A DNA stretch of 64,000 nt, taken from the NCBI RefSeq assembly GCF_035593345.1, contig NZ_CP141606.1, forward strand, positions 3,596,001 to 3,660,000, given 5' to 3'. The stretch is from Lelliottia sp. JS-SCA-14 (GTDB taxonomy: Bacteria > Pseudomonadota > Gammaproteobacteria > Enterobacterales > Enterobacteriaceae). The notes under the pieces were generated by a model. The model had not been told where the DNA came from. It worked only from the letters and a program-made list of their open reading frames with translations, and searched no databases. The position numbers and the translations under genes are program-made. Positions 1,981 through 27,531 of this stretch are shown here, in pieces (position 1 is the first letter of the stretch; every line of letters begins with the position of its first letter).

Positions 1981-2344
1981 GGGGCTGATTCTGGATTCGA
2001 CGGGATTTGCGAAACCCAAGGTGCATGCCGAGGGGCGGTTTGCCTCGTAAAAAGCCGCAAAAAAATAGTCGCAAACGACGAAAACTACGCTTTAGCAGCT
2101 TAATAACCTGCTAAGAGCCCTCTCTCCCTAGCTTCCGCTCTTAAGACGGGGATCAAAGAGAGGTCAAACCCAAAAGAGATCGCACGGATGTCCTGCCTGG
2201 GGCTGAAGTGTTAAAACTAATCAGGCTAGTCTGGTAGTGGCGTGTCAATCCGCAGGTGCCAGGCGAATGTAAAGACTGACTAAGCATGTAGTACCGAGGA
2301 TGTAGGAATTTCGGACGGGGGTTCAAATCCCCCCAGCTCCACCA
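1981..2344 (+). ncRNA. ssrA: Transfer-messenger RNA (tmRNA)
   Basis: The molecule begins GGGGCTGATTCTGGATTCGA and ends with the tRNA-like T-arm (GGTTCAAATCC) and CCAGCTCCACCA; the 5' GGGGCTG pairs with CAGCTCC. The tag-reading frame at 2071-2100 encodes ANDENYALAA and stops at 2101, with the resume alanine codon just ahead. Length (364 nt) fits E. coli ssrA. The 3' end is the insertion site of the genomic island that follows, and the inserted copy keeps a functional-looking tRNA-like end. Confidence 0.97.
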
Positions 2345-2346
2345 AA
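2333..2346 (+). repeat. attL: left attachment site in ssrA 3' end
   Basis: The last bases of ssrA (CCAGCTCCACCAAA) recur with one base missing at 30282-30294. Phage P4-type integrases recombine in the 3' ends of tRNA/tmRNA genes, and the integrase gene begins 165 bp away. Confidence 0.7.
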
Positions 2347-2378
2347 TATTGATGTACTGAAGTTCAGTAAAGTCTACT

Positions 2379-2412
2379 AAGCCCGCACAGCACAAGCTCT
2401 GCGGGCTTTTTT
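2379..2412 (+). terminator. ssrA terminator supplied by the island
   Basis: Stem AAGCCCGCA / TGCGGGCTT followed by T6 closes the ssrA transcript. It lies inside the island, so the element brought a replacement for the native terminator that it displaced to about 30.34-31.83 kb. Confidence 0.8.
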
Positions 2413-2510
2413 ACGTCTATTGTAGTCTAGTGAGAATTGCTGAGAACTACGAGTTATGGCACCCTGAATGGGACCCACGAAGATGGGTCCTAAAATCGAG
2501 GGTCCCAAAC

Positions 2511-3740
2511 ATGGCCAAAATCGCTAAGAAGCTCACTGACACTGAAATCAAAAGCACCAAACCTGCCGAAAAAGAGGTTAACCTTTTTGACGGCGATGGT
2601 TTGCTGTTGCGAATCGCTCCCCTGGCGAAGGGAGGGAAGAAAAATTGGTATTTCAGATATGCAGTGCCTGTGACCAAAAAGCGAACTAAGGTGAGCTTAG
2701 GAACCTATCCTCACCTTACACTTGCGAAGGCACGAGCTTTACGTGATGAATACTTGTCGTTGCTTACAAATGGTATAGACCCCCAAGTTCATAACAACCA
2801 AAAAGCCAATGCACTGAAAGATGCCACGGAACATACATTTCAAGCAGTAGCCAAGAAGTGGCTTGATGAGAAAGTCAAAACGTCAGGCATCTCCCAAGAT
2901 CATGCTAACGACATCTGGCGAAGCCTAGAGAGAAATATCTTTTCCACATTGGGTGATACCCCAATTAAGGAGATTCGCCCTAAAATGCTTAAACAGCATT
3001 TAGAACCCATAGAAAAACGAGGTGTCCTTGAAACACTTCGCCGCATCATATCCCGCCTGAATGAAATTTTCCGCTATGCAGCAACAGAAGAACTCATAGA
3101 ATTCAACCCGGCAGACAACCTGGGGCAACGGTTCAGCAAGCCAAAAAAACAGAATATGCCAGCATTACCCCCTTCCGAACTCCCTCGCTTCTTGGTTGCT
3201 CTAAACAATGCTTCTATCCGTTTGGAAACAAGGCTACTGATTGAGTGGCAACTTCTCACATGGGTTCGCCCAGGTGAAGCTGTTCGCACAAGATGGTCAG
3301 ATATTGATATTGAAACTGGCATGTGGAACATCCCGGCGGAGTTTATGAAAATGAAGAAGCCTCACAAAGTTCCACTGAGCAAAGAAGCTTTGCGAGTTTT
3401 GGATTTAATGAAAGTCATCAGCGGGCATAGAGAGTGGGTGTTCCCCAGTATCAAAGCTCCACTCAATCACATGCATGAACAAACAGCTAATGCGGCCATA
3501 ATCCGTATGGGTTTCGGAGGTGAGCTTGTAGCTCACGGTATGCGATCCATTGCTAGAACGGCTGCTGAGGAGTCTGGCAAGTTTAGGACTGATGTCTTAG
3601 AAGCCGCCCTTGCCCACTCGAAGAAAGATGAAATAATTGCAGCCTACAATCGTGCAGAGTATCTCACTGAACGGGTGGTTCTCATGCAATGGTGGAGTGA
3701 CTATGTTTCGTCTCAAAAATGCAAAGTTATTGCCGCATAA
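2511..3740 (+). CDS. P4-family tyrosine integrase of the ssrA island
   Basis: This is a site-specific tyrosine recombinase that integrates and excises the island at ssrA, of the CP4-57/P4 type. The 409-residue protein has the N-terminal arm-binding DUF4102-like domain (MAKIAKKLTDTEIKSTKP, KKRTKVSLGTYPHLTLAKAR), a central core-binding domain, and the catalytic domain. That domain has Arg in TWVRPGE, the H-x-x-R box in AHGMRSIART, His in LAHSKKDE and a C-terminal Tyr in AYNRAEYL. The ATG at 2511, with GAGGG upstream, is preferred over the open frame from 2430. A GGGACCC/GGGTCC hairpin-forming sequence (2468-2507) lies just upstream and may be an integrase arm site or a regulatory structure. Confidence 0.93.
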   Translation: MAKIAKKLTDTEIKSTKPAEKEVNLFDGDGLLLRIAPLAKGGKKNWYFRYAVPVTKKRTKVSLGTYPHLTLAKARALRDEYLSLLTNGIDPQVHNNQKANALKDATEHTFQAVAKKWLDEKVKTSGISQDHANDIWRSLERNIFSTLGDTPIKEIRPKMLKQHLEPIEKRGVLETLRRIISRLNEIFRYAATEELIEFNPADNLGQRFSKPKKQNMPALPPSELPRFLVALNNASIRLETRLLIEWQLLTWVRPGEAVRTRWSDIDIETGMWNIPAEFMKMKKPHKVPLSKEALRVLDLMKVISGHREWVFPSIKAPLNHMHEQTANAAIIRMGFGGELVAHGMRSIARTAAEESGKFRTDVLEAALAHSKKDEIIAAYNRAEYLTERVVLMQWWSDYVSSQKCKVIAA

Positions 3741-4022: not shown

Positions 4023-5579
4023 ATGGCTAGCGAAAATGACAAAAATCATAGAGTTAGGGTCGCGCAGTACTTGAGGATGTCTACCGACCATCAGCAATAT
4101 TCTTTACATAATCAGTCCGAATATATCAAAGATTATGCTGAAAAGAACAATATGGAAATCGCTTATACCTACGATGATGCAGGTAAGAGCGGAGTCAGTA
4201 TCGTAGGCAGGCATTCTTTGCAGCAGTTACTTAGCGATGTAGAACAAAAGAAAATAGATATACAGGCTGTATTATTTTATGATGTGAGCCGTTTTGGTCG
4301 TTTTCAAAATAGTGATGAAGCGGCATATTATTCCTTTCTATTTGAGAGAAATGGTGTAGATCTTATATATTGTTCCGAACCTATACCCACTAAAGATTTC
4401 CCTTTAGAGTCCTCTGTTATACTGAATATAAAAAGATCTAGTGCTGCATATCACAGCAGGAATTTATCTGAAAAGGTATTTATAGGGCAAGTAAATTTAA
4501 TAAAGCTTGGTTATCATCAAGGCGGTATGGCTGGTTATGGGCTGAGACGTCTTTTAGTAGACGAAAATGGCATAGCTAAAGAAATATTGAGTTTCCGCAA
4601 AAGAAAGAGTATTCAAACAGATAGGGTAATATTAATTCCGGGACCAAAAAATGAAATAAAAATTGTAAATAGAATATATGATCTCTTTATAGATAATAAC
4701 GTCCCAGAATTCATTATTGCTGAGAGATTAAATGAACAGAACATACCTGCAGAAAATGGAACATTATGGACTCGTGCAAAAATACATCAAATTTTGACAA
4801 ATGAAAAATATATTGGAAACAACATATATAACAAAACCTCATCTAAATTAAAAAGTAGGCTTGTAAAAAACCCCAAACATGAATGGGTTAGATGTGACAA
4901 GGCATATAAACCTATTATTTCAAAGAAAAAATACAATAAAGCTCAAGAAATAATTCAGCTCCGATCCATTCATTTGACTAATGAAGATCTATTAGAAAAA
5001 CTAAAACAAAAATTAGAATCTAATGGAAAACTATCAGGCTTTATCATTGATGAAGATGATACAGGCCCTTCATCTTCTGTTTATAGAACCCGATTTGGTG
5101 GTCTTTTAAGAGCATATACTTTGATTGGTTATAAGCCAGAACATGATTACAGCTATCTCAAAATAAATGAAGCACTAAGATCATTTTACTCAGAGATAAT
5201 TGAGGATTTTAAGGGTGAAATTTTAAAAAGTAACTGTCATATAGACGAGTATAAATATGCCCCAATGCTTTACATCAATGATGAGTTTTTAATTTCCGTC
5301 CTTGTTACTAAATGCATACATATGAAATCAGGTAAACTTAGATGGAAAGTCCGGTTTGATAACTCACAGAAAGCAGACATAACAATTGTTATACGAATGA
5401 ATTCACAAAATATTTCACCTCTTGATTTTTATATCATACCAAAGATTGAAAACGAATATAATAAAATGTGCATGACGGAAACAAACAACATTCGATTAGA
5501 TCTCTATAGATTTGATAATCTTGATAAACTTCTACAAATTATTACTCGCATGAAAGTGAGGGAACTATATGCTGCCTGA
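4023..5579 (+). CDS. Large serine recombinase
   Basis: This 518-residue protein has an N-terminal resolvase domain with the catalytic serine in YLRMSTDHQQYS and the helix motif VLFYDVSRFGR. A recombinase domain follows (GYGLRRLLVDENG, then IVNRIYDLFIDNNVPEFIIAERLN and W-T-x-x-K-I-H-Q-I-L-T-N-E-K-Y-I-G-N). A less conserved C-terminal part replaces the usual Zn-ribbon/coiled-coil; no CxxC pair is seen. It overlaps the next ParB-like gene by 11 bp, so the three genes form one translation-coupled operon. Start: ATG with GAGG 8 bases ahead. Large serine recombinases normally integrate or excise DNA, so this may be the motor of a second element nested in the ssrA island. Confidence 0.88.
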   Translation: MASENDKNHRVRVAQYLRMSTDHQQYSLHNQSEYIKDYAEKNNMEIAYTYDDAGKSGVSIVGRHSLQQLLSDVEQKKIDIQAVLFYDVSRFGRFQNSDEAAYYSFLFERNGVDLIYCSEPIPTKDFPLESSVILNIKRSSAAYHSRNLSEKVFIGQVNLIKLGYHQGGMAGYGLRRLLVDENGIAKEILSFRKRKSIQTDRVILIPGPKNEIKIVNRIYDLFIDNNVPEFIIAERLNEQNIPAENGTLWTRAKIHQILTNEKYIGNNIYNKTSSKLKSRLVKNPKHEWVRCDKAYKPIISKKKYNKAQEIIQLRSIHLTNEDLLEKLKQKLESNGKLSGFIIDEDDTGPSSSVYRTRFGGLLRAYTLIGYKPEHDYSYLKINEALRSFYSEIIEDFKGEILKSNCHIDEYKYAPMLYINDEFLISVLVTKCIHMKSGKLRWKVRFDNSQKADITIVIRMNSQNISPLDFYIIPKIENEYNKMCMTETNNIRLDLYRFDNLDKLLQIITRMKVRELYAA

Positions 5580-6465
5580 AAAAAATGAATTCCCAATAAT
5601 TCAAATTGAGATTGCAAAAATAAAATTTCTTAACCCACGAACAAGAAATAAGGTAGTGCATGAAGAAATAAAGGAAAGCATAAAAAAAAGAGGATTAAGC
5701 AAGCCTATAAGCGTAAGAGCTACTGATGAAGGCGATTTCAAATATGCTTTAATTTGTGGTCAAGGGAGAATAGAGGCTCTCGTTGCATTAGGTGAAACTA
5801 TTATTCCAGCAATTATAAGAGATGTATCAGAAGAAGATGCTTACGTTATGAGTTTAGTTGAAAACATTGCAAGGAGAAGACCACGTTCTAATGAGTTATT
5901 ACAGGTGATTAAAGACATGAAAATCAGAGGACTTTCAGACTCCGAAATAAGTGAGATTACTGGATATTCATCGAACTGGGTGAGCAGTATTAATATGCTA
6001 CTTGATAAGGGAGAGCATAAACTTCTCTCAGCAGTCGAACGGGGTAATTTGCCTCTGTATCTCGCAGTGCAATTTGCAAGATGTGAAACTGAGGAAGCAC
6101 AAGATATTCTTACCGAAGCATATGATAAAAAATTAATAAAAAGTCGGGACATTATAAAGATAAAACACATTCTAAATCAAAGAACAGTTGGGAATAAAGG
6201 TGCAAAAGCAGCCGGATTTTATTATCACAAACCATCAAAAAGGATGACTGCAGAGGAGTTGATTGAGCTTTATGAAAATAGTATCGCTGAACATAAATCT
6301 GTTTATAACAACTCAAAATTCATAAAAACCAACCTACTAATAGTAAATGAGATTTTTAACATCATAATGATGAATAAAAGCTTTCAACATATACTTGAAC
6401 AAGAGAATCTTTCAGAACTACCATCTCAGATATTAACCCCAGTAAACAAAGAGGTATTAAAATGA
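5569..6465 (+). CDS. ParB-like nuclease-fold/partition protein 1
   Basis: This 298-residue protein has a ParB N-terminal (ParB/Srx, CTP-binding) domain. Recognisable motifs are NPRTR, ICGQGRIEAL (GxxR box) and SLVENIARRRPRS (ENxxR box). A helix-turn-helix follows (GLSDSEISEITGYSSNWVSS). The C-terminal region resembles the RepB-type C-terminal domain found on plasmid partition proteins. No ParA partner is encoded nearby. It overlaps the recombinase upstream (11 bp) and the second ParB-like gene downstream (ATGA). The association suggests a role in target choice, regulation or stability of the element rather than ordinary partition; that is inference. Confidence 0.75.
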   Translation: MLPEKNEFPIIQIEIAKIKFLNPRTRNKVVHEEIKESIKKRGLSKPISVRATDEGDFKYALICGQGRIEALVALGETIIPAIIRDVSEEDAYVMSLVENIARRRPRSNELLQVIKDMKIRGLSDSEISEITGYSSNWVSSINMLLDKGEHKLLSAVERGNLPLYLAVQFARCETEEAQDILTEAYDKKLIKSRDIIKIKHILNQRTVGNKGAKAAGFYYHKPSKRMTAEELIELYENSIAEHKSVYNNSKFIKTNLLIVNEIFNIIMMNKSFQHILEQENLSELPSQILTPVNKEVLK

Positions 6466-7358
6466 TTCAGATACGTTTTGGCGATAATTTTATTTACCTG
6501 GAAACTAATAAGTTAATTCCATCTAAGGAATTATTAGAAAACGTAAAGCGAAGCCATAAATATCATCAAATAGTTACCTCTATCGAAAGCTTAGGTATTA
6601 TTGAACCAATAATAGTATTCTATGACAAAGATAAAGATGTCACTAAGATACTTGATGGCCATTTAAGGGTTGAGGCTTTAAAAGACTTAGGTATAGAAAA
6701 AGCTCCATGTATACTTTCGAGCATAGATGATGCTTTCACTCCTAACAAACAAGTGAATCATATAAATGTAGTTGAAGAACATAGAATGATAATTAAGTCT
6801 CTGGCAAAAGTATCAATTGAAAAACTTAGTGCTGCTTTGGGCATATCTGTTGATGCCATAAAAGATAAAGCGAATGTGATGAACGGCATAGATCCAAGTG
6901 TAATTGCGAAACTTTCTGATAAACCTATACCTAAGGCTACATTTGACGTTTTGAGGAAAATGAAGCCAATTCGCCAAATTGAAGCAGTCGGTACAATGAT
7001 TAATTTTGATAATTATAGTAAAAAATTTGCAATGAGCATCTTGGATGCAACACCGGCATCGATGATAGTAAATAAAGGGAAAAACACTCCCTATAAAAAG
7101 GACATAAAAAAAACCATACTTCGTCTGGAACAAGAAATGGCAACAACTTCGGAAGAAACGAAAAAGCTTCAAACCGAGTATGGTTCAGATATGTTGAAAT
7201 TCGTTATAATCCAGTCATATATTAATAAATTACTTGGCAATTCTAAAGTTCTTCATTGGTTCTTAGAAAACGAGGTTGATTATCTTAATGAGTTAAAAAG
7301 AATTTCTAGAATAAATTCTTTGGATGATAAGACTCTTACTGAAAACAGCAAGTCATAG
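6462..7358 (+). CDS. ParB-like protein 2 (RepB C-terminal type)
   Basis: This is a second 298-residue ParB-like protein directly coupled to the first by an ATGA overlap. It keeps the order of motifs: an N-terminal strand, ILDGHLRVEALKDLGI (GxxR box degenerate to GHLR), and VVEEHRMIIKSLAKVS in the ENxxR position. An HTH-like stretch follows (VSIEKLSAALGISVDAIKDKA). The C-terminal half has RepB-like features. The key acidic/Asn residues of the CTP pocket are less obvious than in its neighbour, so it may be a non-catalytic partner. The gene pair plus serine recombinase looks like a conserved module. Confidence 0.7.
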   Translation: MIQIRFGDNFIYLETNKLIPSKELLENVKRSHKYHQIVTSIESLGIIEPIIVFYDKDKDVTKILDGHLRVEALKDLGIEKAPCILSSIDDAFTPNKQVNHINVVEEHRMIIKSLAKVSIEKLSAALGISVDAIKDKANVMNGIDPSVIAKLSDKPIPKATFDVLRKMKPIRQIEAVGTMINFDNYSKKFAMSILDATPASMIVNKGKNTPYKKDIKKTILRLEQEMATTSEETKKLQTEYGSDMLKFVIIQSYINKLLGNSKVLHWFLENEVDYLNELKRISRINSLDDKTLTENSKS

Positions 7359-9093: not shown

Positions 9094-11220
9094 TCATCTA
9101 ACTGACTCAATGATCTTTTGTTCTATAACTCGCCCACCTTGCTTTCCAGACAAAGGACCAATTAGTACTTTAAAGTCGGCATAGTCATCTGCCTCAGGCC
9201 TATGCTCTATAATAACAATTGCATTGAATAATTTAGATTTTTGATATATAAAATTCAGCACCTTCGAAGCCGTCTCAGAATCAAGTCCAGCGACAGGTTC
9301 ATCAATAAACAATATTTTGTTTGTTTTTCTGGACTTAGATAGTATTTCACATAATTTTATTCTACGCATTTCACCACCTGACAGGGACTGCGTTTTTCTA
9401 TTAAGTTTCAAATGTGATATTCCAAGATAATGGATAGTTTCAAGAATAGTATTAATCTTAGTGTTATTAAAAAAAGAGCTTAACTCTTTCAACTCAGTAT
9501 CATATACATCTATTATATTCATACCATTAATCTGAGACTTTACTTCATCTATATTGTGGTCAAACAGTTTACCCTCACATTTATGACATGATATGTAGAT
9601 ATCCTTTTCAAAACCCCTTTCATATTTTATCACGCCCTTACCTTCACAAACTTTACATCCACCAAGTTTGTTTGGATGGAAATACTCTATATCTAATTTT
9701 GTTGTATCGGAGAAAAATTCTGCAATTAATTTATTCAAATCCGTGATAGTTGCGACAGTAGAACGTCCTGTATATGATGACAATTTTTGGCTTATATAAA
9801 TCGAATCGGTAAGACTACAAATGGCTTTAGCTAAAGATGATTTCCCCGATCCGGAGATTCCAGAAAAAACAGTAACACACTCTTTAGGGATACGTATATT
9901 TTGATTAATGATGTTATTTTTATTAAGCCCTTCAAAATAATAGTAATCAGATATATTATTTTTGGGATTGAGGTTCCTTTGCGGCTGAATTTTTTCTTTT
10001 TCACAAATTTCCCCACCAGAAGAACCAGCGTATTTACCAACATGGATTTGCTGATCAGCAAGATCTATGAAATACTGCGAGTGCTCTACTAAAATAACTG
10101 TGTTTTTTTCTGATAATTTTTTTAGCTTTTGAAAGATAACTTCAAAATCGACAGGGTTAATTTGGGATGATATTTCATCGATAACAATCAGAATACCTGT
10201 TGTATTAGATGTTAAAAGCCTGCTGAAAATAAGTTTTTGTATTTCCCCCCCAGAAAGACTGGGAATTGAACGAGACAAATTTAAATATCCCAATCCCATA
10301 TTATTTATTGAGGACAACACTCTAATTAATACTGAGTCACCTATAGTTTTTTTCAGGGTATTACATAATTCAGATATAGGAGATAGTAAAAATTCATCAA
10401 ATGTAAATCCTAAAACATCAAGTTGGGCTGTTTCTTGGTTAATTCTGCTTCCATTACAAAATGAGCAATTTTCTTCCTTTTTATACTTTGAATTGTTTTG
10501 GCTCCGTCCTATATTCGAATTAGCAAAAGACATTACGCCTTTATAAAAAGCTCTTCTTTGCTTCGTTTTTCCTTTGTGTTTAAATCTAAAAGATAATTTC
10601 TCAGCGCTTTCTCCATATAGTATTAGGTTTTTCTTTTCAAGTGATAGTGAATCAAAAGTATCATCTACTTTTATATTATTTTTATCACAATAGACCATAA
10701 GTAATTGGTGATAATAATCAGATAACTCACCAGTCCGCCAACATAAAAATGGTTTTTGATCTAGTCTACATTTTTCATTAATTAATTCAGATTCATCCAC
10801 ACTAACTATCTCGCCGAGGCCTAAGCAGTGAGGACATTCATTTCTATAATTGTTTATTTTTAATTTATCATAATTAGGTACTGCTACGTTTCTTTTGATT
10901 TTTAAAGATGACAAAGCTTGAGCTATATTCAGATATGAATATATAGTTGAACGAGGGTTGTTATTTGTGTTTCTTTGTGGTATCGCAACAGCGGGAATTA
11001 ACCCACTGAAATTTGCAACTTTATAATCACTTTCATTCAAATAACCGTTTTCTACAGCATCAAACTCATCTTTGCATAATTGATAAATTGATGAAAATGC
11101 TAAAGAACTTTTTCCTGCGCCCGAACGGCCATAAATAGCGGTTATTGTATTAAATGGTATAGTAACATCTAAATTTTTTAAATTATGGGTGGCTATTCCC
11201 TCAAAAATGATCTTATTCAT
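9094..11220 (-). CDS. UvrA-like tandem ABC ATPase, short form
   Basis: The 708-residue protein has the two ABC modules of UvrA. Module 1 has Walker A YGRSGAGKSSLAF, a zinc-finger start ECPHCLGLGE, signature LSGGEIQK and Walker B IVIDEIS. Module 2 has Walker A SGISGSGKSSLAK, CKVCEGKG and SCHKCEGK zinc pairs, signature LSGGEMRR and Walker B ILFIDEPVAGLD. At about 700 residues it is far shorter than UvrA (about 940). That fits the UvrA2/DrrC-like class without the UvrB-binding insert, a class known for self-resistance to DNA-binding antibiotics. It is the last gene of the operon and overlaps the E1-like gene by 8 bp (ATGAATAA), with GAGG upstream. Likely role: immunity or damage sensing linked to the peptide product; this is inference. 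Confidence 0.8.
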   Translation of the reverse strand: MNKIIFEGIATHNLKNLDVTIPFNTITAIYGRSGAGKSSLAFSSIYQLCKDEFDAVENGYLNESDYKVANFSGLIPAVAIPQRNTNNNPRSTIYSYLNIAQALSSLKIKRNVAVPNYDKLKINNYRNECPHCLGLGEIVSVDESELINEKCRLDQKPFLCWRTGELSDYYHQLLMVYCDKNNIKVDDTFDSLSLEKKNLILYGESAEKLSFRFKHKGKTKQRRAFYKGVMSFANSNIGRSQNNSKYKKEENCSFCNGSRINQETAQLDVLGFTFDEFLLSPISELCNTLKKTIGDSVLIRVLSSINNMGLGYLNLSRSIPSLSGGEIQKLIFSRLLTSNTTGILIVIDEISSQINPVDFEVIFQKLKKLSEKNTVILVEHSQYFIDLADQQIHVGKYAGSSGGEICEKEKIQPQRNLNPKNNISDYYYFEGLNKNNIINQNIRIPKECVTVFSGISGSGKSSLAKAICSLTDSIYISQKLSSYTGRSTVATITDLNKLIAEFFSDTTKLDIEYFHPNKLGGCKVCEGKGVIKYERGFEKDIYISCHKCEGKLFDHNIDEVKSQINGMNIIDVYDTELKELSSFFNNTKINTILETIHYLGISHLKLNRKTQSLSGGEMRRIKLCEILSKSRKTNKILFIDEPVAGLDSETASKVLNFIYQKSKLFNAIVIIEHRPEADDYADFKVLIGPLSGKQGGRVIEQKIIESVR

Positions 11221-12295
11221 ACTTTCCTCTACACCAATCACATTCAGGATCACGTGGAACATCTTGGACGTTAAAAGATAAACTTCTAAGACTAAATTCG
11301 ACTCTTTTATTTTCTTGTTGCAAGTGATCTACTTTCCCGGCAAGTAATTTTATAGCGTCCAAGCTTGCAAGGCTTGCAGCCAGACCTGATAGTGGTGAAA
11401 ATGAACCTAATTTTCGTTTTACCCGGTGCAATTTCTTCACATTAACAAGGTCTTTGCTATTTATTTTTCCTAAAAATAGGTTAAAACAATTAAAGCATGC
11501 TGACTTAAATGGAATAATTGTCTGACCGATAAGGGTTTGATGAAGATTATATCCCCCGCCAACTATATGTGGGATATTATGAATCATACTAAAGAGGGCG
11601 ATTATTTTACTGGTGTAATCCACATTAGGTTCATCAGCGCAGTTTATTATCAAATCTATATCAGAGGGTAGAATATTTCTTTTAAAAAAATCATCATCGA
11701 TAATGTCATTGATAATGTCAATCTTAATATCTGGAGATATCTTTTTCAAAGAGTTGAGTAACGCTATATTTTTATCAGAGTTAATTTCATCCTCGAAATA
11801 AAACTGACGATGTAAATTACTTATATCTACATTATCGTGATCTACAAATATTATCGAACCAACATTGCAATGAGCAAGATACGTTGCCACATTACTACCG
11901 ACTGCTCCAATACCTACAATCATTACTTTTGATTTTTTAAGATTAATTATACATTCTAAAACCTCACTGGTGGTATGACAGTAGTCTTCAAATGTATTGA
12001 TCATTCTATATTGTTCAGTGACAAGCTCTGCAGGGTATTGGCAATCTTGATCGATAATTATATTGTTTTCATTCAAAAACAAAGCTAATTTTTCAAGTTG
12101 TTGAATATCGATTCCTGAATAATTTGCTACAATTTCTTGAAGAGAAGTTTGCCCATCAAACATCTTTAAGAGTTCAACTATATTTGGAAAGTTGATTTTT
12201 ATTTTTATACTTTCTCTAATATTGGATTTAAAAAACTCTACAGTATCATCATTTACGACGATACCAATACTTTGTCGCAGTCTAAAATTATTCAT
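11213..12295 (-). CDS. E1-like (ThiF/MoeB/MccB-type) adenylyltransferase 2 with N-terminal RRE-like domain
   Basis: The 360-residue protein has two parts. Residues about 1-80 look like a PqqD/RRE-type winged helix (LLKMFDGQTSLQEIVANYSG, then LEKLALFLNENNII), which in RiPP enzymes grips the leader peptide. The rest is an E1-superfamily adenylation domain: Rossmann loop VGIGAVGSNVA, acidic end of strand 2 FVDHDNVD, Arg finger NLHRQ, lysine SDKNIALL, and the Asp of NCADEP. A zinc site is formed by CFNC and CDWC. It overlaps the upstream E1-like gene: ATG at 12295 (or GTG at 12313) lies inside the previous gene's end, so the two are made together and may form a heterodimer. Confidence 0.82.
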   Translation of the reverse strand: MNNFRLRQSIGIVVNDDTVEFFKSNIRESIKIKINFPNIVELLKMFDGQTSLQEIVANYSGIDIQQLEKLALFLNENNIIIDQDCQYPAELVTEQYRMINTFEDYCHTTSEVLECIINLKKSKVMIVGIGAVGSNVATYLAHCNVGSIIFVDHDNVDISNLHRQFYFEDEINSDKNIALLNSLKKISPDIKIDIINDIIDDDFFKRNILPSDIDLIINCADEPNVDYTSKIIALFSMIHNIPHIVGGGYNLHQTLIGQTIIPFKSACFNCFNLFLGKINSKDLVNVKKLHRVKRKLGSFSPLSGLAASLASLDAIKLLAGKVDHLQQENKRVEFSLRSLSFNVQDVPRDPECDWCRGKYE

Positions 12296-13412
12296 TACAG
12301 ATTTTGCATCCACTTTGTTTTACCAATTCAAAATTAGTCATTTTGCCTTCGTTTGGAAGGTATTCATACCGACTATTTACATATGAAAATGCTGAATCAT
12401 CCAACAGGAAGTGAATTAATTTCATGCAACTTAGATTAGCTGAAAAACCATTCATCATTGCTAATCCACCAGGCCCTCCTGGAATATAATTATCATAGAC
12501 AGATTTTGAAAGGTCCAGTTGAGGATTATTGACTATACTATATACAGGCTTCCATCCTTTTAATGCCTTTGAAAACGTATTTTGGGCACAATCTATACAG
12601 GGTGTATGTGGAGGGAATATTAATTCTCCTGAACTCATTAAGTGGGCGTCAAATCCACCTGATACATACAGCGGAATAGCTCTTGCTTGTGCATATCTAC
12701 CAAGTTTTAAAGAAGTATGACCTATATAAGGCTCATCACAAGTATTAATAATCAGATCTGTATCATCAGAAATGATAGAGGATAGATTAGTAGTAGGTAT
12801 AAGTTTTTCAAAATGTTTTGTTATTATTACTCGACTATCGATCCAACTCAAAAATTCTGACAGGACATCTACCTTTGGTTTTCCGATTTTCTTATAGTTA
12901 TAATAACAATGCCTTGCTGCATTTGACTTTGAAAGGGACTTATAATCAACCAAAACTATATTTTTAACACCTGCGCGGACAAGTATTTCTATAATTTTGG
13001 CTCCTACAGCTCCACACCCAAATAAAACAACCTTTTTGCTCTCCAAGATATGTTGAGTTTCTACACCAGGTCGTTCAAGGACAAAATCGTCCCAAAATGT
13101 AATTTGTCGTGAAAAACGAGGTTCAATATCGCAAATGTTATTTACATCATAAATAAAATGTTGATTTAGTAAAAAAGCAATTAGTTTATCGACATCTTTT
13201 GAGCGTAGGGACCCCATCTCAGTAACTATATCATTTATAGTTTTTATACCATCAAGGCTGGCAATAAATCGAGCGACATTTTTATTAGTTTTTATTTCTA
13301 ATCTATCACGCGTTGTCATCACATGAAATGTGAGTTTGACATTATCAGTATTATCTTCATTCGATATAAAAATATCCACAGTTTCTTTTATTTTATATTT
13401 TTTGGAGTCCAT
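12288..13412 (-). CDS. E1-like adenylyltransferase 1 with N-terminal RRE-like domain
   Basis: The 374-residue protein has the same architecture as its neighbour. An N-terminal winged-helix region (FIASLDGIKTINDIVTEMG, then VDKLIAFLLNQHFIYD) precedes an E1 domain with LFGCGAVGAKIIEI, LVDYKSL, the Arg finger in NAARH, lysines in GKPKVD, Asp in NTCDEP, and zinc pairs CIDC and CKIC. E1-like enzymes activate a carboxylate or amide as an adenylate. In MccB the substrate is the C-terminus of a short peptide, and in TOMM clusters the related C protein presents the precursor. It starts 48 bp after the small Cys-rich gene, beyond a hairpin, with GGGA before the ATG. Confidence 0.82.
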   Translation of the reverse strand: MDSKKYKIKETVDIFISNEDNTDNVKLTFHVMTTRDRLEIKTNKNVARFIASLDGIKTINDIVTEMGSLRSKDVDKLIAFLLNQHFIYDVNNICDIEPRFSRQITFWDDFVLERPGVETQHILESKKVVLFGCGAVGAKIIEILVRAGVKNIVLVDYKSLSKSNAARHCYYNYKKIGKPKVDVLSEFLSWIDSRVIITKHFEKLIPTTNLSSIISDDTDLIINTCDEPYIGHTSLKLGRYAQARAIPLYVSGGFDAHLMSSGELIFPPHTPCIDCAQNTFSKALKGWKPVYSIVNNPQLDLSKSVYDNYIPGGPGGLAMMNGFSANLSCMKLIHFLLDDSAFSYVNSRYEYLPNEGKMTNFELVKQSGCKICNE

Positions 13413-13426
13413 TGTATATTCCCAAT

Positions 13427-13451
13427 AAAATCGCCCATCAAGGGCGATTTT
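13427..13451 (-). terminator. Hairpin between precursor gene and E1-like gene (attenuator)
   Basis: A perfect 10-bp stem AAAATCGCCC / GGGCGATTTT with a 5-base loop lies in the 48-bp gap after the Cys-rich peptide gene. Such leaky terminators commonly let a RiPP precursor be made in excess over its modifying enzymes. Confidence 0.75.
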
Positions 13452-13460
13452 GAATTTAGA

Positions 13461-13661
13461 TTAATATTGGAGAACGCCGGCGTTAACCTCCAAGTATTTT
13501 TCCCAAGCATCTAAATTCGACGCTGAGTTTTGCTCGTCGTTACCAGCTCGCGTGCATACACGAGTACAACAGTCACTACGTTCTCCAGAGCAACCACCCG
13601 TATAGTTGGCGGTAGCATTGGTATTGCTGATGACTTCAAATGTTAAATCTAAACACTGCAT
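13461..13661 (-). CDS. Cys-rich peptide, putative RiPP/microcin precursor
   Basis: The 66-residue peptide begins MQCLDLTFEVIS and has a Cys-rich middle (CSGERSDCCTRVC, five Cys counting from GGC) flanked by T, S and N residues. It ends WEKYLEVNAGVLQY. The ATG at 13661 has an excellent AAAGGA Shine-Dalgarno, so the longer TTG frame to 13682 is rejected. There is no export signal or Gly-Gly leader site. The N-terminal LDLTFEV recalls the F-x-L-D type leader of some lanthipeptide/TOMM precursors; that resemblance is only suggestive. It is the first gene of the operon with the two RRE-bearing E1-like enzymes and the UvrA-like ATPase, so it is the obvious substrate candidate. Confidence 0.72.
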   Translation of the reverse strand: MQCLDLTFEVISNTNATANYTGGCSGERSDCCTRVCTRAGNDEQNSASNLDAWEKYLEVNAGVLQY

Positions 13662-14315: not shown

Positions 14316-15455
14316 GTGAATATTATACCGATTCGGGGCGATGCCGAATGGACCGCTTTGGAATTCTTTGCTGGTATCGGCCTGGCGAGAGCTGGGATGG
14401 AGCAGGCGGGAATCAAGACTGTTTGGTCTAATGACTATGACCTGAACAAAAAATCGATGTATGAAGGCCATTGGAAAACTCACAAGCTTTTTCTGGCAGA
14501 CATTCATACCCTGAATAGCGAAGACCTGCCAACTGCAGATGTTGCTTGGGCCTCTTCTCCCTGCACTGATCTTAGTCTGGCGGGTAAGCGTGTCGGCCTG
14601 CGGGGAGGCAGGGAATCGTCCGCCTTCTTCGGATTTACTGATTTGCTTGCAGGGATGAATGAACGCAAGCCTGAAGTGATCGTCCTCGAAAATGTCACAG
14701 GCCTTGCCTCCTCCCATAACAGAGAAGATTTGAGAGCTGCGGTTAAAGAATTTAATGAGTTAGGTTATGCAGTCGACGCAATCACTCTGGACGCCCGACG
14801 TTTTGTGCCACAGTCCCGACCAAGGTTATTCCTGATAGGAGCAAAAAATCCTATTGATGGAGGCGAACAGGATTCGTGCCTGAGACCAGACTGGCTTTCC
14901 TGGCTGCATAAAGATGCTGAAGTACGCACCTTCATGATGCCTTTACCTAAAGCACCTGAGCTACTAAGCCAAGGGTTCACTCTTGAGATTGAGGCTATCC
15001 CAGACAGCGACCCTCGGTGGTGGAATGCTGATAAAGTTTCTCTTTTTAAAGAGTCCATGGCATCGGTACAGCGTGAAAGGTTAGAACATTTTGTCAATCT
15101 AGACTGTACAACTGCCCGCACAGCCTATCGTAGAACTCGTAATGGCATTCCCGTATGGGAAATGAGAGCAGAAGACATTTCAGGATGTTTACGCACAGCA
15201 CGTGGCGGTTCCTCCAAACAGGCGGTGGTGATCATGGGTAGGGGCGCACTCAAAATCAGGTGGATGACCGGACTTGAGTATGCACGTCTGATGGGGGCTG
15301 GCTGGTACACGCTGGAAAATTTGCGCGACTCACAAATTCAATATGGTTTTGGGGATGCCGTCGCTGTTCCTGTTGTTGGCTGGGTCGCCCGGCACATGAT
15401 CCTCCCTCACCTTGAGGCCGCAAAAAAAGCGCAAGGAATAAAAGTGAATGAATAA
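14316..15455 (+). CDS. DNA (cytosine-5) methyltransferase
   Basis: The 379-residue C5 methyltransferase carries motif I ALEFFAGIGLARAGME (AdoMet binding), motif IV SSPCTDLSLAGKR with the catalytic Cys, motif VI VIVLENVTG, motif VIII RFVPQSRPRLFLIG, a short target-recognition region, and C-terminal motifs IX-X (GRGALKIRWMTGLEYARLMG, GFGDAVAVPVV). The start is GTG at 14316 with GGGAG 8 bases ahead. It overlaps the next gene by 8 bp (ATGAATAA), typical of a linked restriction-modification pair. Its methylation protects host DNA from the partner enzyme. Confidence 0.92.
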   Translation: MNIIPIRGDAEWTALEFFAGIGLARAGMEQAGIKTVWSNDYDLNKKSMYEGHWKTHKLFLADIHTLNSEDLPTADVAWASSPCTDLSLAGKRVGLRGGRESSAFFGFTDLLAGMNERKPEVIVLENVTGLASSHNREDLRAAVKEFNELGYAVDAITLDARRFVPQSRPRLFLIGAKNPIDGGEQDSCLRPDWLSWLHKDAEVRTFMMPLPKAPELLSQGFTLEIEAIPDSDPRWWNADKVSLFKESMASVQRERLEHFVNLDCTTARTAYRRTRNGIPVWEMRAEDISGCLRTARGGSSKQAVVIMGRGALKIRWMTGLEYARLMGAGWYTLENLRDSQIQYGFGDAVAVPVVGWVARHMILPHLEAAKKAQGIKVNE

Positions 15456-16440
15456 GTTGAATTACTCCGAAGCGTATCTTGCAGCGGCGAAAGCCTGGTA
15501 CGAAGGTGAACGAGCCAAGAGTGGCGCGATAAATACCAATGTAATGAATGCAGGACTGATCGTCTCACGTATGATGGCTGATGGTATGCCTATTACTGAC
15601 GAACGTCTGTACAGCGAAGGAAAAAGCCAAGTACGAGGGCTCAGTGGTGCCACCATATCAAAGATTCTTGAACAACATGGCGAAACCCGCGTTTTTACCC
15701 GTGAAGGTGGGCGTACGTCCAGAGGGACTATTTTCCTTGCTGCTGCATTTCGGGATGTACTTAACAATACTCAAGTAAATGGAAATGAGCCTGTCGACAC
15801 AAAACTGGTTTCCAACCAGCTCGAAGCTTTCTTCACTCAATGCGTGCGTCTGGACTATTTTGACAAACAGAGAATAACAGTCGACCTAGATTACAACAAG
15901 CCAGTTGCATCTGTGGTAAGCGATATTCTTAAAGCGTCGGCGGAACGTTCAGACAAACCCACTGGAGCTGTGCTACAGCATCTTATTGGAGCCAAACTCC
16001 AATTGCGCTTTCCCAATGTTAAAATCGGCAGTGACAGAGCCAATGCAGCTGACTTACACACTGACCGTGAGGGTGATTTTCAGGTGGGTACTACTGCATT
16101 CCACGTGACCACCGCACCTATGGAGAAATTGATTTCGCGCTGTGTCGAAAACAAACGTGCAGGCTACAGGCCGGTCATCCTAACTCTTGAAAGCAAAGTC
16201 ATTGCAGCACGCCAGATGGCTGATAACGTTGGTATGTCTGAACAGATAGCCGTCCAGGCAGCCGAAACTTTCATCGGTAACAATATTGAAGAGATTGCTA
16301 TCTATGACGGCGATAAAATCCGTGAGGGTCTCGCAAGACTGATACGTACGTACAACGTCCGTATCAATACTATCGAGATAGATAAATCCCTTATGATTGA
16401 TGAGCCTCGTTGGATCGTTAACTTACTGACCGACTCCTGA
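15448..16440 (+). CDS. Putative restriction endonuclease, DUF4928-like
   Basis: The 330-residue protein is translationally coupled to the C5 methyltransferase. It resembles the DUF4928 proteins that accompany Dcm-like methylases, and they are thought to be the cognate type II restriction enzyme. Visible features are an N-terminal helical HTH-like part (GLSGATISKILEQHGETRVF). The C-terminal half contains HTDREGDFQVGTTAFHVTTAP and later LTLESKVIAARQM, a D/E...E-x-K arrangement that could form a PD-(D/E)XK nuclease site. Family assignment is from memory; the nuclease role rests mainly on context. Confidence 0.65.
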   Translation: MNKLNYSEAYLAAAKAWYEGERAKSGAINTNVMNAGLIVSRMMADGMPITDERLYSEGKSQVRGLSGATISKILEQHGETRVFTREGGRTSRGTIFLAAAFRDVLNNTQVNGNEPVDTKLVSNQLEAFFTQCVRLDYFDKQRITVDLDYNKPVASVVSDILKASAERSDKPTGAVLQHLIGAKLQLRFPNVKIGSDRANAADLHTDREGDFQVGTTAFHVTTAPMEKLISRCVENKRAGYRPVILTLESKVIAARQMADNVGMSEQIAVQAAETFIGNNIEEIAIYDGDKIREGLARLIRTYNVRINTIEIDKSLMIDEPRWIVNLLTDS

Positions 16441-17439: not shown

Positions 17440-18393
17440 ATGAGTAACTATACAGAAGATAATTTATTTGACAGCATATCTAAAAAAGACGTCCAGAATT
17501 GCATTGCTGCAGGCATTGACATTAACACACTAAATGAACACGGTGAAAACGCCCTTTTCGGTTGCGACAGTATCGGGGCTTTAAAAGCCATGATTGAAGC
17601 AGGCATAGCGCTGAACCATACAGATTGTTATGGTAATAATGCCCTGTTTAGCAGAAAAAGCCCACGAGCACTGGGGCTATTGATAAAATCAGGTATTAAC
17701 GTTCATCACAAAAATAATAAAGGCCAGTCCTGTCTTCACTGGCAGCACTACGACATAGATTGTGCGGAACTCCTCATTAACGCGGGCGTTGATATCCACA
17801 GCACAGATAATGAAGGTCAAACGCTTCTTTACAACCTCCACGATCATGACGTCTTTGATTACTGGGTAAATAAAGGGTGTGACATAAACCACAGAGATTA
17901 TAATGGCAAAGCGGTGCTGGACCTTCCGACTGACGACGAGTGGTGGATATATGATTTCAGTATTAATGCCCTCAAACGCCATGTTGACAGAATAGACAGC
18001 ACACCAGTTTTATTTAAACATATTTCAACTGAGGCGTTGCCTCTGATTGCTTTGCTTCATGAAAAAGGGCGTAATATCCTTATCGCTGAACACTGTACCT
18101 TCGCATTATATGTCAAAAACATGAAGTCCTTCTTTACCTCACTGAAAAAATATACCGATATCAGTCATGTTCAGTTTTATAATTGTTATCATGACAGACA
18201 TATTGGTGTCTATACTGGTATTGAGACAGTAAAATGGTTTATTCGAAATGGTATCAGAGTGGACGACGATATACTGAGACAGCGTGCTGACTCTGATAAA
18301 ATTTTTGACTATATAAGCGGAAGAGAGAAAAAAGATTTTCTCAAAATCATGAAACCAGAAATCACCCATGCGCCGAAGAGAAAAAGAATGTGA
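17440..18393 (+). CDS. Ankyrin-repeat protein 1
   Basis: The 317-residue protein has about five degenerate ankyrin repeats in residues about 20-170. Signatures are DINTLNEHGENALFGCD, ALNHTDCYGNNALFS, NVHHKNNKGQSCLHW, DIHSTDNEGQTLLYNL and DINHRDYNGKAVLDL. A non-repeat C-terminal half ends in a basic tail PKRKRM. Ankyrin repeats mediate protein binding. It has no secretion signal. A paralogue with the same repeat and C-terminal pattern (VKWFIRNGIRVD versus VKWMIRNNLLVD) lies at 26539-27531. AAGGAG precedes the ATG. A role in defence, toxin neutralisation or effector function is possible but not shown. Confidence 0.8.
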   Translation: MSNYTEDNLFDSISKKDVQNCIAAGIDINTLNEHGENALFGCDSIGALKAMIEAGIALNHTDCYGNNALFSRKSPRALGLLIKSGINVHHKNNKGQSCLHWQHYDIDCAELLINAGVDIHSTDNEGQTLLYNLHDHDVFDYWVNKGCDINHRDYNGKAVLDLPTDDEWWIYDFSINALKRHVDRIDSTPVLFKHISTEALPLIALLHEKGRNILIAEHCTFALYVKNMKSFFTSLKKYTDISHVQFYNCYHDRHIGVYTGIETVKWFIRNGIRVDDDILRQRADSDKIFDYISGREKKDFLKIMKPEITHAPKRKRM

Positions 18394-26318: not shown

Positions 26319-26538
26319 TCAACATTGCCGATGTAATGGTAGCATCTCCCGCGAAGGTTTGGTCCTATAGTCCGGACGGCAGGTTACAGGCGTAAATTTA
26401 CTGCAGGTGTTTCTGATGTATCCACGGGTGGTTTGTGGAAATTTTTATTCCGCACATCATGAACACCTTTCCCCAGCTGTTGCATTTCACAGAATTTCTG
26501 ATATCTAATGACTTAAACATTTTTTCATGGGGGTGTTT

Positions 26539-27531
26539 ATGGAATTAGTCATATCCTTATTACAAAAGGGATTATTAGAAAAGGCATTAGACCTTGCCAT
26601 TTCTGAATCATTCTTCAATGCAAGATCACCTGATGATATAAAGAAAGCTTTAAAAATAGGCTATGACATTAATGCTGTTAACAGTAACGGCAACAATGCC
26701 ATTTTTGCCTGCAGAACCCTGGAAGCCATGGATTGCCTGCTCAGTTATGGAATTAATATACACCATATCAACGGACATGGGCAAAATGCGCTCTTTCATC
26801 AAAAAAATCCAGAAATACTGAAGAAACTGATTGAACTGGGTTTAGACACCTCGCATACGGATACTAATGGCTACACATGCATTTTTGAACATTACAGGAA
26901 TGCTGAAGGATTGACAGAATTAATTAATGCTGGTTGTGATATAAATCACATCGATAAAAAAGGAATGAATATTCTCTTCATGCCCCTTTCCCCGGAAGTT
27001 TTATCCGTAGCAATAGATGCTGGATGCAATGTCAATCAAATTGATCATTCAGGGAAAGGATTTATTGAAAATGTATATGATTATGAATTACATGATATCA
27101 TTCTCTCGCATATTGATAAATTTGACAGAAGAACGCTGCATGTAGATTTTTGTGATCTCGACTCAGCCTTTTTCTTGTATTACCTTTCTGAACATGGATT
27201 CAAAATAGAACTTAATAAAGACCATTTCACCATTAACAGTTACATTGGTGATTATAAAGAAATCTTATCCATACTTGATTTCATCAGTGAAATTCATGAT
27301 ATTCACTTCTATAAATATAAAGGCGGCCCTCTCTATAAAGATATCAACAAGCGAATTGTAAAGTGGATGATAAGAAATAATCTCTTGGTTGATTTATCAA
27401 AAATAGATAAACACAAGGATTATGAAGAAATTAATTCATACAAAATCCGTCGAGAACAGAAAGAAATCTCCAGGCATTTAAAACCTGCTAAAAGTATATC
27501 TGCAACAGTCAAAAACGGCGGAAGATTGTGA
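26539..27531 (+). CDS. Ankyrin-repeat protein 2
   Basis: This 330-residue paralogue of the protein at 17440-18393 shows repeats DINAVNSNGNNAIFACR, NIHHINGHGQNALFH, DTSHTDTNGYTCIFE, DINHIDKKGMNILFM and NVNQIDHSGKGFIEN. The C-terminal domain has IVKWMIRNNLLVD and a basic end. No secretion signal is seen. A GGGGG run just ahead favours the ATG at 26539 over 26527. Unlike its paralogue it has no 146-residue partner upstream; a decayed IS lies there instead. Confidence 0.8.
   Translation: MELVISLLQKGLLEKALDLAISESFFNARSPDDIKKALKIGYDINAVNSNGNNAIFACRTLEAMDCLLSYGINIHHINGHGQNALFHQKNPEILKKLIELGLDTSHTDTNGYTCIFEHYRNAEGLTELINAGCDINHIDKKGMNILFMPLSPEVLSVAIDAGCNVNQIDHSGKGFIENVYDYELHDIILSHIDKFDRRTLHVDFCDLDSAFFLYYLSEHGFKIELNKDHFTINSYIGDYKEILSILDFISEIHDIHFYKYKGGPLYKDINKRIVKWMIRNNLLVDLSKIDKHKDYEEINSYKIRREQKEISRHLKPAKSISATVKNGGRL

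Follow-up and report, generated by a model that had tools for sequence, protein, structure and literature searches.

A mobile four-gene unit with two predicted RRE-bearing E1-like enzymes, a conserved cysteine-rich peptide and a UvrA-like ATPase: a candidate module of ribosomally encoded chemical immunity

Microcin C is the product of a pathway in which the precursor MccA, a heptapeptide, is processed by one E1 enzyme, MccB, while an exporter and immunity genes complete the set. Other enzymes of the RRE-ThiF type form macrocycles rather than attach nucleotides, according to excerpts of two recent papers (PMC12250964, PMC12150305). From a different field, UvrA-like proteins devoid of the UvrB-binding domain, such as Ecm16 and DrrC, are established or predicted self-resistance factors (PMC10192343, in part). 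Here we analyse a locus of Lelliottia sp. JS-SCA-14 in which elements of these systems occur side by side. Its gene set was not found in the full-text literature searched, and no paper with any of four sequence motifs of the unit appeared there; subscription papers, preprints and supplements lie outside that corpus, so that an earlier description is possible.

The window (the whole stretch of DNA analysed, 64,000 nucleotides) contains a four-gene unit at positions 9094-13661 of the minus strand, on which all four genes are encoded. The first gene (13461..13661; ATG at 13661, stop ending at 13461, AAAGGA upstream) encodes a Cys-rich peptide of 66 amino acids and is separated by a spacer hairpin (13426..13452, minus strand) from E1-A (12288..13412), a protein of 374 amino acids with an RRE-like and a ThiF/E1 domain and an atypical nucleotide site. 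E1-B (11213..12295; ATG at 12295, stop ending at 11213; 360 amino acids) has the same two domains and a canonical nucleotide site, and the last gene (9094..11220; ATG at 11220, stop ending at 9094) encodes a UvrA-like tandem ABC ATPase of 708 amino acids without a UvrB-binding domain. The E1-A/E1-B and E1-B/UvrA-like junctions are both formed by the 8-bp overlap ATGAATAA; note that a mechanical list of open reading frames gives more upstream starts for E1-B and the UvrA-like gene than those used here. Peptide, hairpin, enzyme genes and overlaps had all been reported by a first-pass annotation, made from the letters alone, and were verified in the window sequence. Its observation that YcaO, LanB/C, radical SAM and exporter genes are absent likewise agrees with a Pfam scan of 24 window proteins, the peptide included, among which none was found (the window has more open reading frames).

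The window hairpin is genuine, with z = -3.7 relative to a set of 200 dinucleotide shuffles, its role being that of an attenuator/terminator or of an mRNA end. Hairpins with z <= -2.5 are present in 14 of 18 spacers (the window and 17 other loci), mostly with different sequences; that of L021 is weak (z -1.6), and by the same shuffle test L019, L020 and L026 have none. In the window and in these 17 loci, no SOS box of the form CTG-N10-CAG was found in the 300 bp ahead of the peptide gene.

On comparative sequence grounds the peptide is a real gene, since relative to one Pectobacterium locus 12 of the 15 codons of its core differ silently with no residue difference, and since QY forms the last two residues in 230 of the 232 peptides among the matches listed. 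The near-invariant core CSGERSDCCTRVCTR (residues 24-38; codons at 13548..13592, minus strand) contains four near-invariant cysteines in the pattern C-x6-CC-x3-C, and the conserved C-terminal block extends from W53 to Y66 (codons at 13464..13505, minus strand), ending in NAGVLQY in the window. W53 is kept in 232/232 and position 30 is Asp in 209/232 of the peptides among the matches listed, figures that are biased upward because these relatives are the best 120 of 234, of 477 and of 596 matches. The same core is found in Pseudomonadota, Bacteroidota and Fusobacteriota, and in Bacillota as peptide with source names only. Nineteen loci were fetched with E1-A as bait, and peptide, E1-A and E1-B are present in all of them, the peptide adjoining the enzymes and showing leader, core and C-terminal end, as expected of a RiPP of the RRE-ThiF kind. 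The gene set thus represents more than chance, being recurrent in the loci fetched (where the presence of E1-A is by construction). The first-pass annotation had staked its RiPP reading on conservation of the peptide in homologous operons, and conservation was found in 19/19 examined.

Both enzymes contain a ThiF domain (E = 9e-31 for E1-A and 5e-36 for E1-B), preceded in their AlphaFold2 models by strands followed by three helices, forming a predicted RRE-like domain at about residues 1-90 of E1-A (13143..13412, minus strand) and 1-82 of E1-B (12050..12295, minus strand). The predicted structure of E1-A aligns with MccB from residue 4, and that of E1-B gave a whole-length Foldseek match to the same protein; as modelled, both enzymes resemble MccB along the entire chain, the RRE among the matching parts. 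The RRE-like modules suggested in the first reading are thereby borne out by fold and by full-chain alignment with an RRE-bearing enzyme, on the basis of predicted structure and not of an RRE profile. The seven ATP/adenylate residues are intact in 17/17 E1-B proteins. In E1-A the site is only partly kept: D156, K180 and D226 are found in 34/34, the second Asp is not kept, and the Asn, Arg and Gln of the nucleotide site are kept in part or not at all. A pairwise MccB alignment had suggested that E1-B has no arginine finger and that E1-A supplies one; this idea was dropped because a profile alignment pairs R102 of E1-A with R97 of E1-B, invariant in 17/17. A heterodimer of E1-A and E1-B is only a proposal. 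In Pectobacterium CFBP8739 (L011), E1-B and the UvrA-like protein are fused into 1,096 amino acids; as this is one locus of 19 and the start of UvrA is partially duplicated in it, the fusion is weak evidence of physical coupling.

The UvrA-like protein scores 364 bits with TIGR00630, against a cut-off of 729.8. Its UvrB-binding domain is missing (residues 116 to 137, numbered in a 722-aa reading frame, bridge 127 to 288 of UvrA 2r6f), as is zinc module 1, whereas zinc modules 2 and 3 are present, with eight cysteines kept in 16/16, and a DNA-binding insertion domain is predicted (PF17755, E 2.6e-11), the two halves of zinc module 2 being separated by 119-125 residues. The view that this protein is too short to bind UvrB therefore held, and the layout of Ecm16 is kept, although in sequence the protein is distant from Ecm16 (199 bits), UvrA2 (224) and UvrA (286). 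The gene is present in 18/19 loci; in Zoogloea (L016) none lies by the unit, and UvrA-type matches in the draft genome reach at most 99 bits, so that either a guard is not strictly required or this copy has decayed. The protein could also be an effector instead of a guard.

The unit is carried by mobile DNA. It occurs on two mobilizable plasmids, and the window copy lies on an island at an ssrA site that also has a relaxase and recombinases and whose probable insertion end is marked by ssrA (tmRNA) followed by a phage-type integrase (1981..3740, plus strand); transposase, integrase or relaxase genes are also found near the unit in L010, L014, L015, L018, L019 and L024. Viral contigs contained no match to the E1-A alignment, a phage collection gave just two partial MoeB-type matches to E1-A, and a Bacillus-type peptide had no match in the phage collection or in plasmids. 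As to its neighbours, BREX, RADAR, Gabija, IetAS, TmtA or Hhe/MkoA-type genes lie within 2 kb in 7 of 16 loci (L011, L023 and L027 being left out as near copies; open reading frames of at least 200 aa only) and in 0 of 20 control regions. These were stretches of random chromosome from the host's relatives, not islands, and came from taxa other than those of the loci; each contributed four proteins (the first four; 80 of 212 open reading frames), where the test loci averaged 4.75. Two generic control matches (WYL and mad3) were not counted; the mad3 model matches the unit's UvrA-like protein too, and its control match is presumably an ordinary UvrA. Counted by protein, 12 or 13 of 76 neighbours were defence-positive against 2/80 in controls (Fisher 0.0022 with 13), the ambiguity coming from the family PDC-S13, which has no named protein attached to it; PDC-S01 in L026 did not enter the tally of named systems. 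In 9/16 loci the flank examined has no such system. The window copy itself is adjoined, outside the unit, by a type II restriction-modification pair (C5 methylase and DUF4928 nuclease; 14316..16440, plus strand). This context is no proof of defence, because defence genes are enriched beside lanthipeptide clusters too: excerpts of one survey give 136 defence systems at distances of up to about 10 kb from lanM in 1,412 clusters, and 6/200 for random regions (PMC12715929).

RiPP-type maturation of the peptide is well supported by sequence and predicted structure, because the peptide is conserved, both E1s resemble MccB and the UvrA-like protein has the Ecm16 layout. We favour, at a probability of a little under one half, a self-contained and mobile four-gene module of chemical immunity over a secreted antibiotic. 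In such a module the leader of the 66-aa peptide would be bound by the two RRE-bearing E1-like proteins, a step for which sequence and predicted structure speak, and E1-B, with its full canonical site, would adenylate the carboxylate of Tyr66, the sole carboxylate common to nearly all peptides, E1-A with its altered site acting as partner. Side-chain activation at Asp30, by analogy with PaaA or GrcB, is possible since position 30 is so often Asp. A nucleophile, in the simplest case one belonging to the peptide itself (the thiol of a core Cys or the indole of Trp53), may then capture the activated end, yielding a macrocyclic Cys-rich product. This product would stay inside the cell and act on a target that hardly varies between phyla, DNA or another nucleic acid; the UvrA-like ATPase, built like Ecm16/DrrC, would clear it from the host DNA or otherwise guard the host, leaving incoming phage or plasmid DNA unprotected. 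Such a system would parallel, with a ribosomal product, the anthracycline type of chemical phage defence, and would include a UvrA-like guard. That chemical immunity of this ribosomally encoded sort forms a class of its own, new to science, in which a canonical and an altered E1, both equipped with an RRE, turn an ultraconserved Cys-rich peptide into an anti-phage agent inside the cell while the ATPase shields the host genome, is a suggestion we make tentatively and would not bet on at even odds.

The first-pass annotation had proposed a RiPP or MccB-like nucleotide-peptide antibiotic acting on DNA, against which the UvrA-like protein would give the producer immunity. Its RiPP part stands, as does the precedent for a short UvrA in immunity, and MccB-like nucleotide attachment is possible. 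A secreted product, which unlinked host transporters would have to export, appears unlikely to us. RRE-E1 enzymes are indeed known from antibiotic pathways (MccB, PaaA; PMC12250964, in part), UvrA-like proteins without the UvrB-binding domain are self-resistance factors, established or predicted, as described above, defence genes are found near RiPP clusters too, and two single loci have a gene of the relevant kind in the flank, L013 for an HlyD-type protein at a distance of about 3 kb and L012 for an M20 peptidase. However, no recurrent exporter or peptidase occurs in the flanks examined (Pfam for 30 neighbours, all-against-all comparison for 76), the core barely varies from Pseudomonadota to Bacteroidota, unlike that of arms-race antibiotics, and 7/16 loci lie near defence genes; L016, moreover, has the peptide and both enzymes but no UvrA-like gene by the unit. 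The linked peptidase and transporter used elsewhere as a mining filter, not as a chemical requirement (PMC12150305, in part), do not recur in the flanks examined here.

The plasmids, the ssrA-site island and the mobility genes at six loci would also suit a stabiliser of the toxin-antitoxin kind: cells that lose the element would be poisoned by the matured peptide, to which the UvrA-like protein would be the antidote. This is improbable, as it explains the clustering with defence systems no better than defence itself does and its antidote gene is missing in L016. Less probable still is a house-keeping product, such as a redox or metal-binding cofactor made from the C-x6-CC-x3-C core, with the ATPase in DNA repair: four near-invariant cysteines in an almost fixed core suit a cofactor more than a weapon, but the unit is rare and patchy, a full-length E1-A relative being absent from 59 relatives of the host (35 of the same genus; only partial ThiF/MoeB-type matches) and E1-A being found at E <= 1e-40 in 1/369 genomes of the class, the host itself. 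Ubiquitin-like conjugation (as in CBASS Cap2 or Bil), with the peptide as a tag activated at its strict C-terminus by E1 enzymes and attached to target proteins, is hardly credible, given that no E2, E3 or JAB-type gene occurs in the units or recurrently beside them, that PADLOC E1-E2 models match over the E1 part only, that the 66-residue peptide has no Gly-Gly end and that RRE-like domains indicate peptide-leader binding.

Should the immunity reading be correct, the same core across Pseudomonadota, Bacteroidota, Fusobacteriota and Bacillota (peptide only) would mean that one fixed molecule is kept against invading DNA, and raises the question of which target or property fixes about 15 residues while most codons change silently. 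The unit brings together three fields that seldom meet, namely E1-based RiPP chemistry, self-resistance through UvrA-like proteins and anti-phage islands; as four genes in 4.6 kb found in ordinary enterobacteria, it makes both the chemistry and phage protection directly testable. Mining of RRE-ThiF clusters through linked peptidase and transporter genes, as outlined in the accessible part of PMC12150305, may have missed such units.

Among described systems, the closest to both E1s is MccB of microcin C (PDB 3h5n, 3h9g, 6om4), which shares with them the full-length fold, the N-terminal RRE, the ThiF/E1 adenylating domain, two CxxC pairs and a gene adjoining that of a small precursor peptide. 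Differently from microcin C, whose very short precursor ends in Asn and receives its nucleotide from MccB, the present unit has a pair of dissimilar E1s and a 66-aa peptide with Tyr as its last residue, and no exporter was seen. PaaA (pantocin A), GrcB, EnfB and IndF are likewise RRE-ThiF enzymes that activate a carboxylate of a ribosomal peptide, after which GrcB, EnfB and IndF close a ring (PMC12250964, PMC12150305). In the excerpts of these sources one ThiF-like enzyme is named per cluster, against two E1s here, and the GrcB, EnfB and IndF clusters have transporters, unlike our unit; PaaA works on glutamate side chains, while IndF links the carboxylate of a C-terminal Ile with the indole of a Trp, to which W53 and Y66 offer a possible analogy only. 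Ecm16, DrrC and UvrA2 (PDB 7sh1, 2vf7) resemble the UvrA-like protein in lacking the UvrB-binding domain and zinc module 1 and in keeping zinc modules 2 and 3 and the insertion domain. They are only distantly related to it by sequence, its length is 708 aa against 792 for Ecm16 and 764 for DrrC, and its partner genes are RRE-E1s where those of Ecm16/DrrC belong to an intercalator assembly line. Finally, the anti-phage lanthipeptides ('lanthiphages') are RiPP-type genes in defence islands with a reported anti-phage role; as far as the excerpts of their description go, they use LanBC chemistry, occur in Actinomycetota only and name no E1 or UvrA-like protein (PMC12715929), whereas the unit described here would rely on a pair of E1-like enzymes.

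Four minus-strand genes make up the unit in the window, read from right to left: a Cys-rich peptide of 66 aa (13661-13461), the RRE-ThiF enzymes E1-A (374 aa, 13412-12288) and E1-B (360 aa, 12295-11213), and a UvrA-like ATPase (708 aa, 11220-9094), the folds of these proteins being predicted. Both enzyme junctions (E1-A/E1-B and E1-B/UvrA-like) have the 8-bp overlap ATGAATAA in common. Between the peptide and E1-A lies a hairpin (13452-13426, minus strand) with a z of -3.7 against shuffled sequence. Including the window, 14 of the 18 spacers checked hold a hairpin at z <= -2.5, mostly of unlike sequence; it is weak in homologous locus L021 (z -1.6) and absent from L019, L020 and L026. By analogy with many peptide-product operons, the hairpin could raise peptide output over that of the enzyme.

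Among 19 loci collected with E1-A as bait, which include near copies (L011/L012 and L022/L023/L027), the peptide, E1-A and E1-B are present in all, and the UvrA-like gene in 18. The lowest identities to the window are those of Phocaeicola (E1-A 33%, E1-B 41%, UvrA-like 32%). The UvrA-like gene is found upstream and divergent in four Pseudomonas loci, and in one Pectobacterium (L011:9103-12393) it is fused to E1-B in a single open frame of 1,096 aa, with the UvrA start partly duplicated. It is absent from the Zoogloea unit (L016), where UvrA-type matches in the draft genome reach at most 99 bits. A frame of 1,934 aa in Zoogloea oleivorans (genome pieces L051-L054), with two sets of UvrA-type matches, is a double-length UvrA relative. 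Outside the unit, the neighbours common to the loci are transposases, integrases, the helicases of L015 and L024, and a few weak matches; two Pseudomonas loci that were compared also share neighbour genes, one of them without a solved relative.

Peptide searches returned 477 and 596 relatives at E <= 0.01 (the best 120 of each listed), with source names including Vibrio, Dickeya, Neisseria, Capnocytophaga and Myroides, and also Bacillus paramycoides, Brevibacillus, Alkaliphilus and Natronincola. The peptide has no match to a Pfam or NCBIfam model at E <= 1. Residues F8, C24, C31, C36 and W53 occur in all 232 peptides, the window included, C32, G62 and Q65 in 231, and S29 and Y66 in 230; the peptide ends in QY in 230/232. 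The cysteine pattern is found once in 230 of the 232, twice in one, and is lost in one. Identity between the window and Phocaeicola peptides is 0.89 in the core (residues 20-38), 0.64 in the C-terminal block, 0.11 in the leader and 0 in the linker. In the core, 12 of 15 codons are silently changed relative to Pectobacterium (L012) with no residue changed, and 10 silently relative to Phocaeicola with one residue changed. Such silent changes with residues kept show the peptide to be a translated product with a strongly constrained core. Multi-core precursors are a habit of RiPPs, and in peptide P0150 two copies of the core block share a single leader and a single C-terminal block, where its relative P0313 has one copy; this single case could be an assembly effect.

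ThiF-type RiPP enzymes are described as activating a carboxylate (PMC12250964, PMC12150305). No acidic side chain is universal in the 232 peptides: position 30 is D/E in 216 and position 58 in 198, and the acid at position 30 is missing from the L010, L013, L014, L016, L018 and L024 peptides. The final two positions hardly vary and the C-terminal carboxylate is always present; we therefore infer from these sequences that activation would take place at the peptide C-terminus. Capture of the activated end by a core cysteine, comparable to the GrcB thiolactone, could follow; Trp53 would be another possible nucleophile (compare the IndF indolylamide), and the alternative would be nucleotide addition, as MccB does.

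The UvrA-like protein aligns to UvrA in blocks, with both Walker A motifs and both LSGGE signatures present and the UvrB-binding part missing. All 16 of the 16 UvrA-like sequences keep the eight cysteines of zinc modules 2 and 3, with an insertion domain of 119-125 residues between the halves of zinc module 2. This layout is the same as that of Ecm16, which is reported to bind DNA via its insertion domain and to give E. coli echinomycin resistance with no need of UvrB; its homologue DrrC is reported there to confer daunorubicin resistance (PMC10192343). The shared layout, together with these resistance roles, supports an action of the unit's UvrA-like protein on DNA, where by analogy it would most likely be protective.

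The window unit sits on accessory DNA. ssrA (tmRNA, 1981-2344) is followed directly by a phage-type integrase (2430), and the two probably mark an island end (1981-3740); the island may extend as far as about 31 kb, a transposase (30381-31166) being followed there by genes of chromosomal type, a fimbrial gene first. The accessory DNA also carries a MobA relaxase (18977), two ankyrin-repeat proteins (17440-18393 and 26527-27531) and a SIR2-like (SIR2_2) protein of 450 aa (28420-29772), SIR2 being a domain common among anti-phage effectors. Two overlapping ParB/RepB-like genes lie behind a serine recombinase (5569-7358), and no ParA was seen among the window proteins scanned. A type II restriction-modification pair (14316-16440), in which a C5 cytosine methylase overlaps a DUF4928 protein called a type II restriction enzyme by PADLOC (E 6e-178), stands 655 bp from the unit.

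The unit is sparsely distributed among relatives. Across 59 genomes of relatives, of which 35 belong to the same genus, E1-A has at best partial matches, at E 3e-10 or weaker and mostly 23-34% identity, as expected of ThiF/MoeB proteins, and at E <= 1e-40 the host itself is the only match among 369 genomes of its class. A pattern scan of the genome collection gave 17 loci. Matches occur in 44 plasmid records; among the 20 listed, two align at at least 50% identity, both carrying the whole unit, and the others at no more than 33%. E. coli holds one remnant in 5,426 genomes: 919 bp from the end of the UvrA-like gene (window 9094-10012, 99.7% identity), flanked by an IS1 transposase immediately in front and an IS3 transposase behind. 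Farther beyond this remnant (L028:11987-12919, E. coli 23AR0998) lie satellite-type genes (primase-helicase, polarity suppression).

A PADLOC scan (E <= 1e-50) of 76 neighbours of at least 200 aa from 16 loci gave 12 or 13 positives, against 2 (WYL, mad3) among 80 control proteins drawn from 20 randomly chosen regions in genomes of relatives. By locus, the defence genes beside the unit are BREX PglZ and BrxL (L009), RADAR RdrA and RdrB (L012), Gabija GajA and GajB (L018), TmtA (L019), Hhe/PDC-S37 (L024), MkoA and PDC-S37 (L015), and IetS with IetA (L025). Distances from the unit to the nearest defence gene range from 86 to 1,830 bp over these loci; the farthest gene is 3,979 bp away. The restriction-modification pair next to the window copy comes on top of these. 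With the WYL and mad3 control matches left out, defence loci number 7/16 against 0/20 controls (p = 0.0014). The mad3 model (PDLC04135) hits one protein of the random control set, probably UvrA, at 8e-58 and the unit's own UvrA-like protein at 3e-44, so that mad3 calls alone may mislead. For lanthipeptide clusters, a survey with a different tool reports that 136 defence systems lie no farther than about 10 kb from lanM across 1,412 clusters, and that 200 regions taken at random hold 6 (PMC12715929). The link between the unit and defence genes is thus strong, but partly common to RiPP clusters, and it is measured against random regions, not islands.

In the literature searched, no report combined two E1 enzymes with a UvrA-like protein, a Cys-rich peptide that is near-invariant and a location in defence islands, and there is a fair chance that the unit represents a new class of immunity. 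Its chemistry would be of a known kind, RRE-ThiF peptide maturation. What the analysis shows is the gene set with its conservation, domains and context; modification of the peptide and the site of it, the target, the guard role and protection from phages are inferred. Anthracyclines, including daunorubicin, are reported to inhibit DNA phages, and a greater exposure of phage DNA compared with host DNA is suspected (PMC12360287). Producers of such DNA-binding compounds are described as guarded by UvrA-like proteins (PMC10192343). In a mechanism of this type for the unit, the small molecule would be replaced by a matured form of the Cys-rich peptide, and the part of guard would fall to the UvrA-like ATPase.
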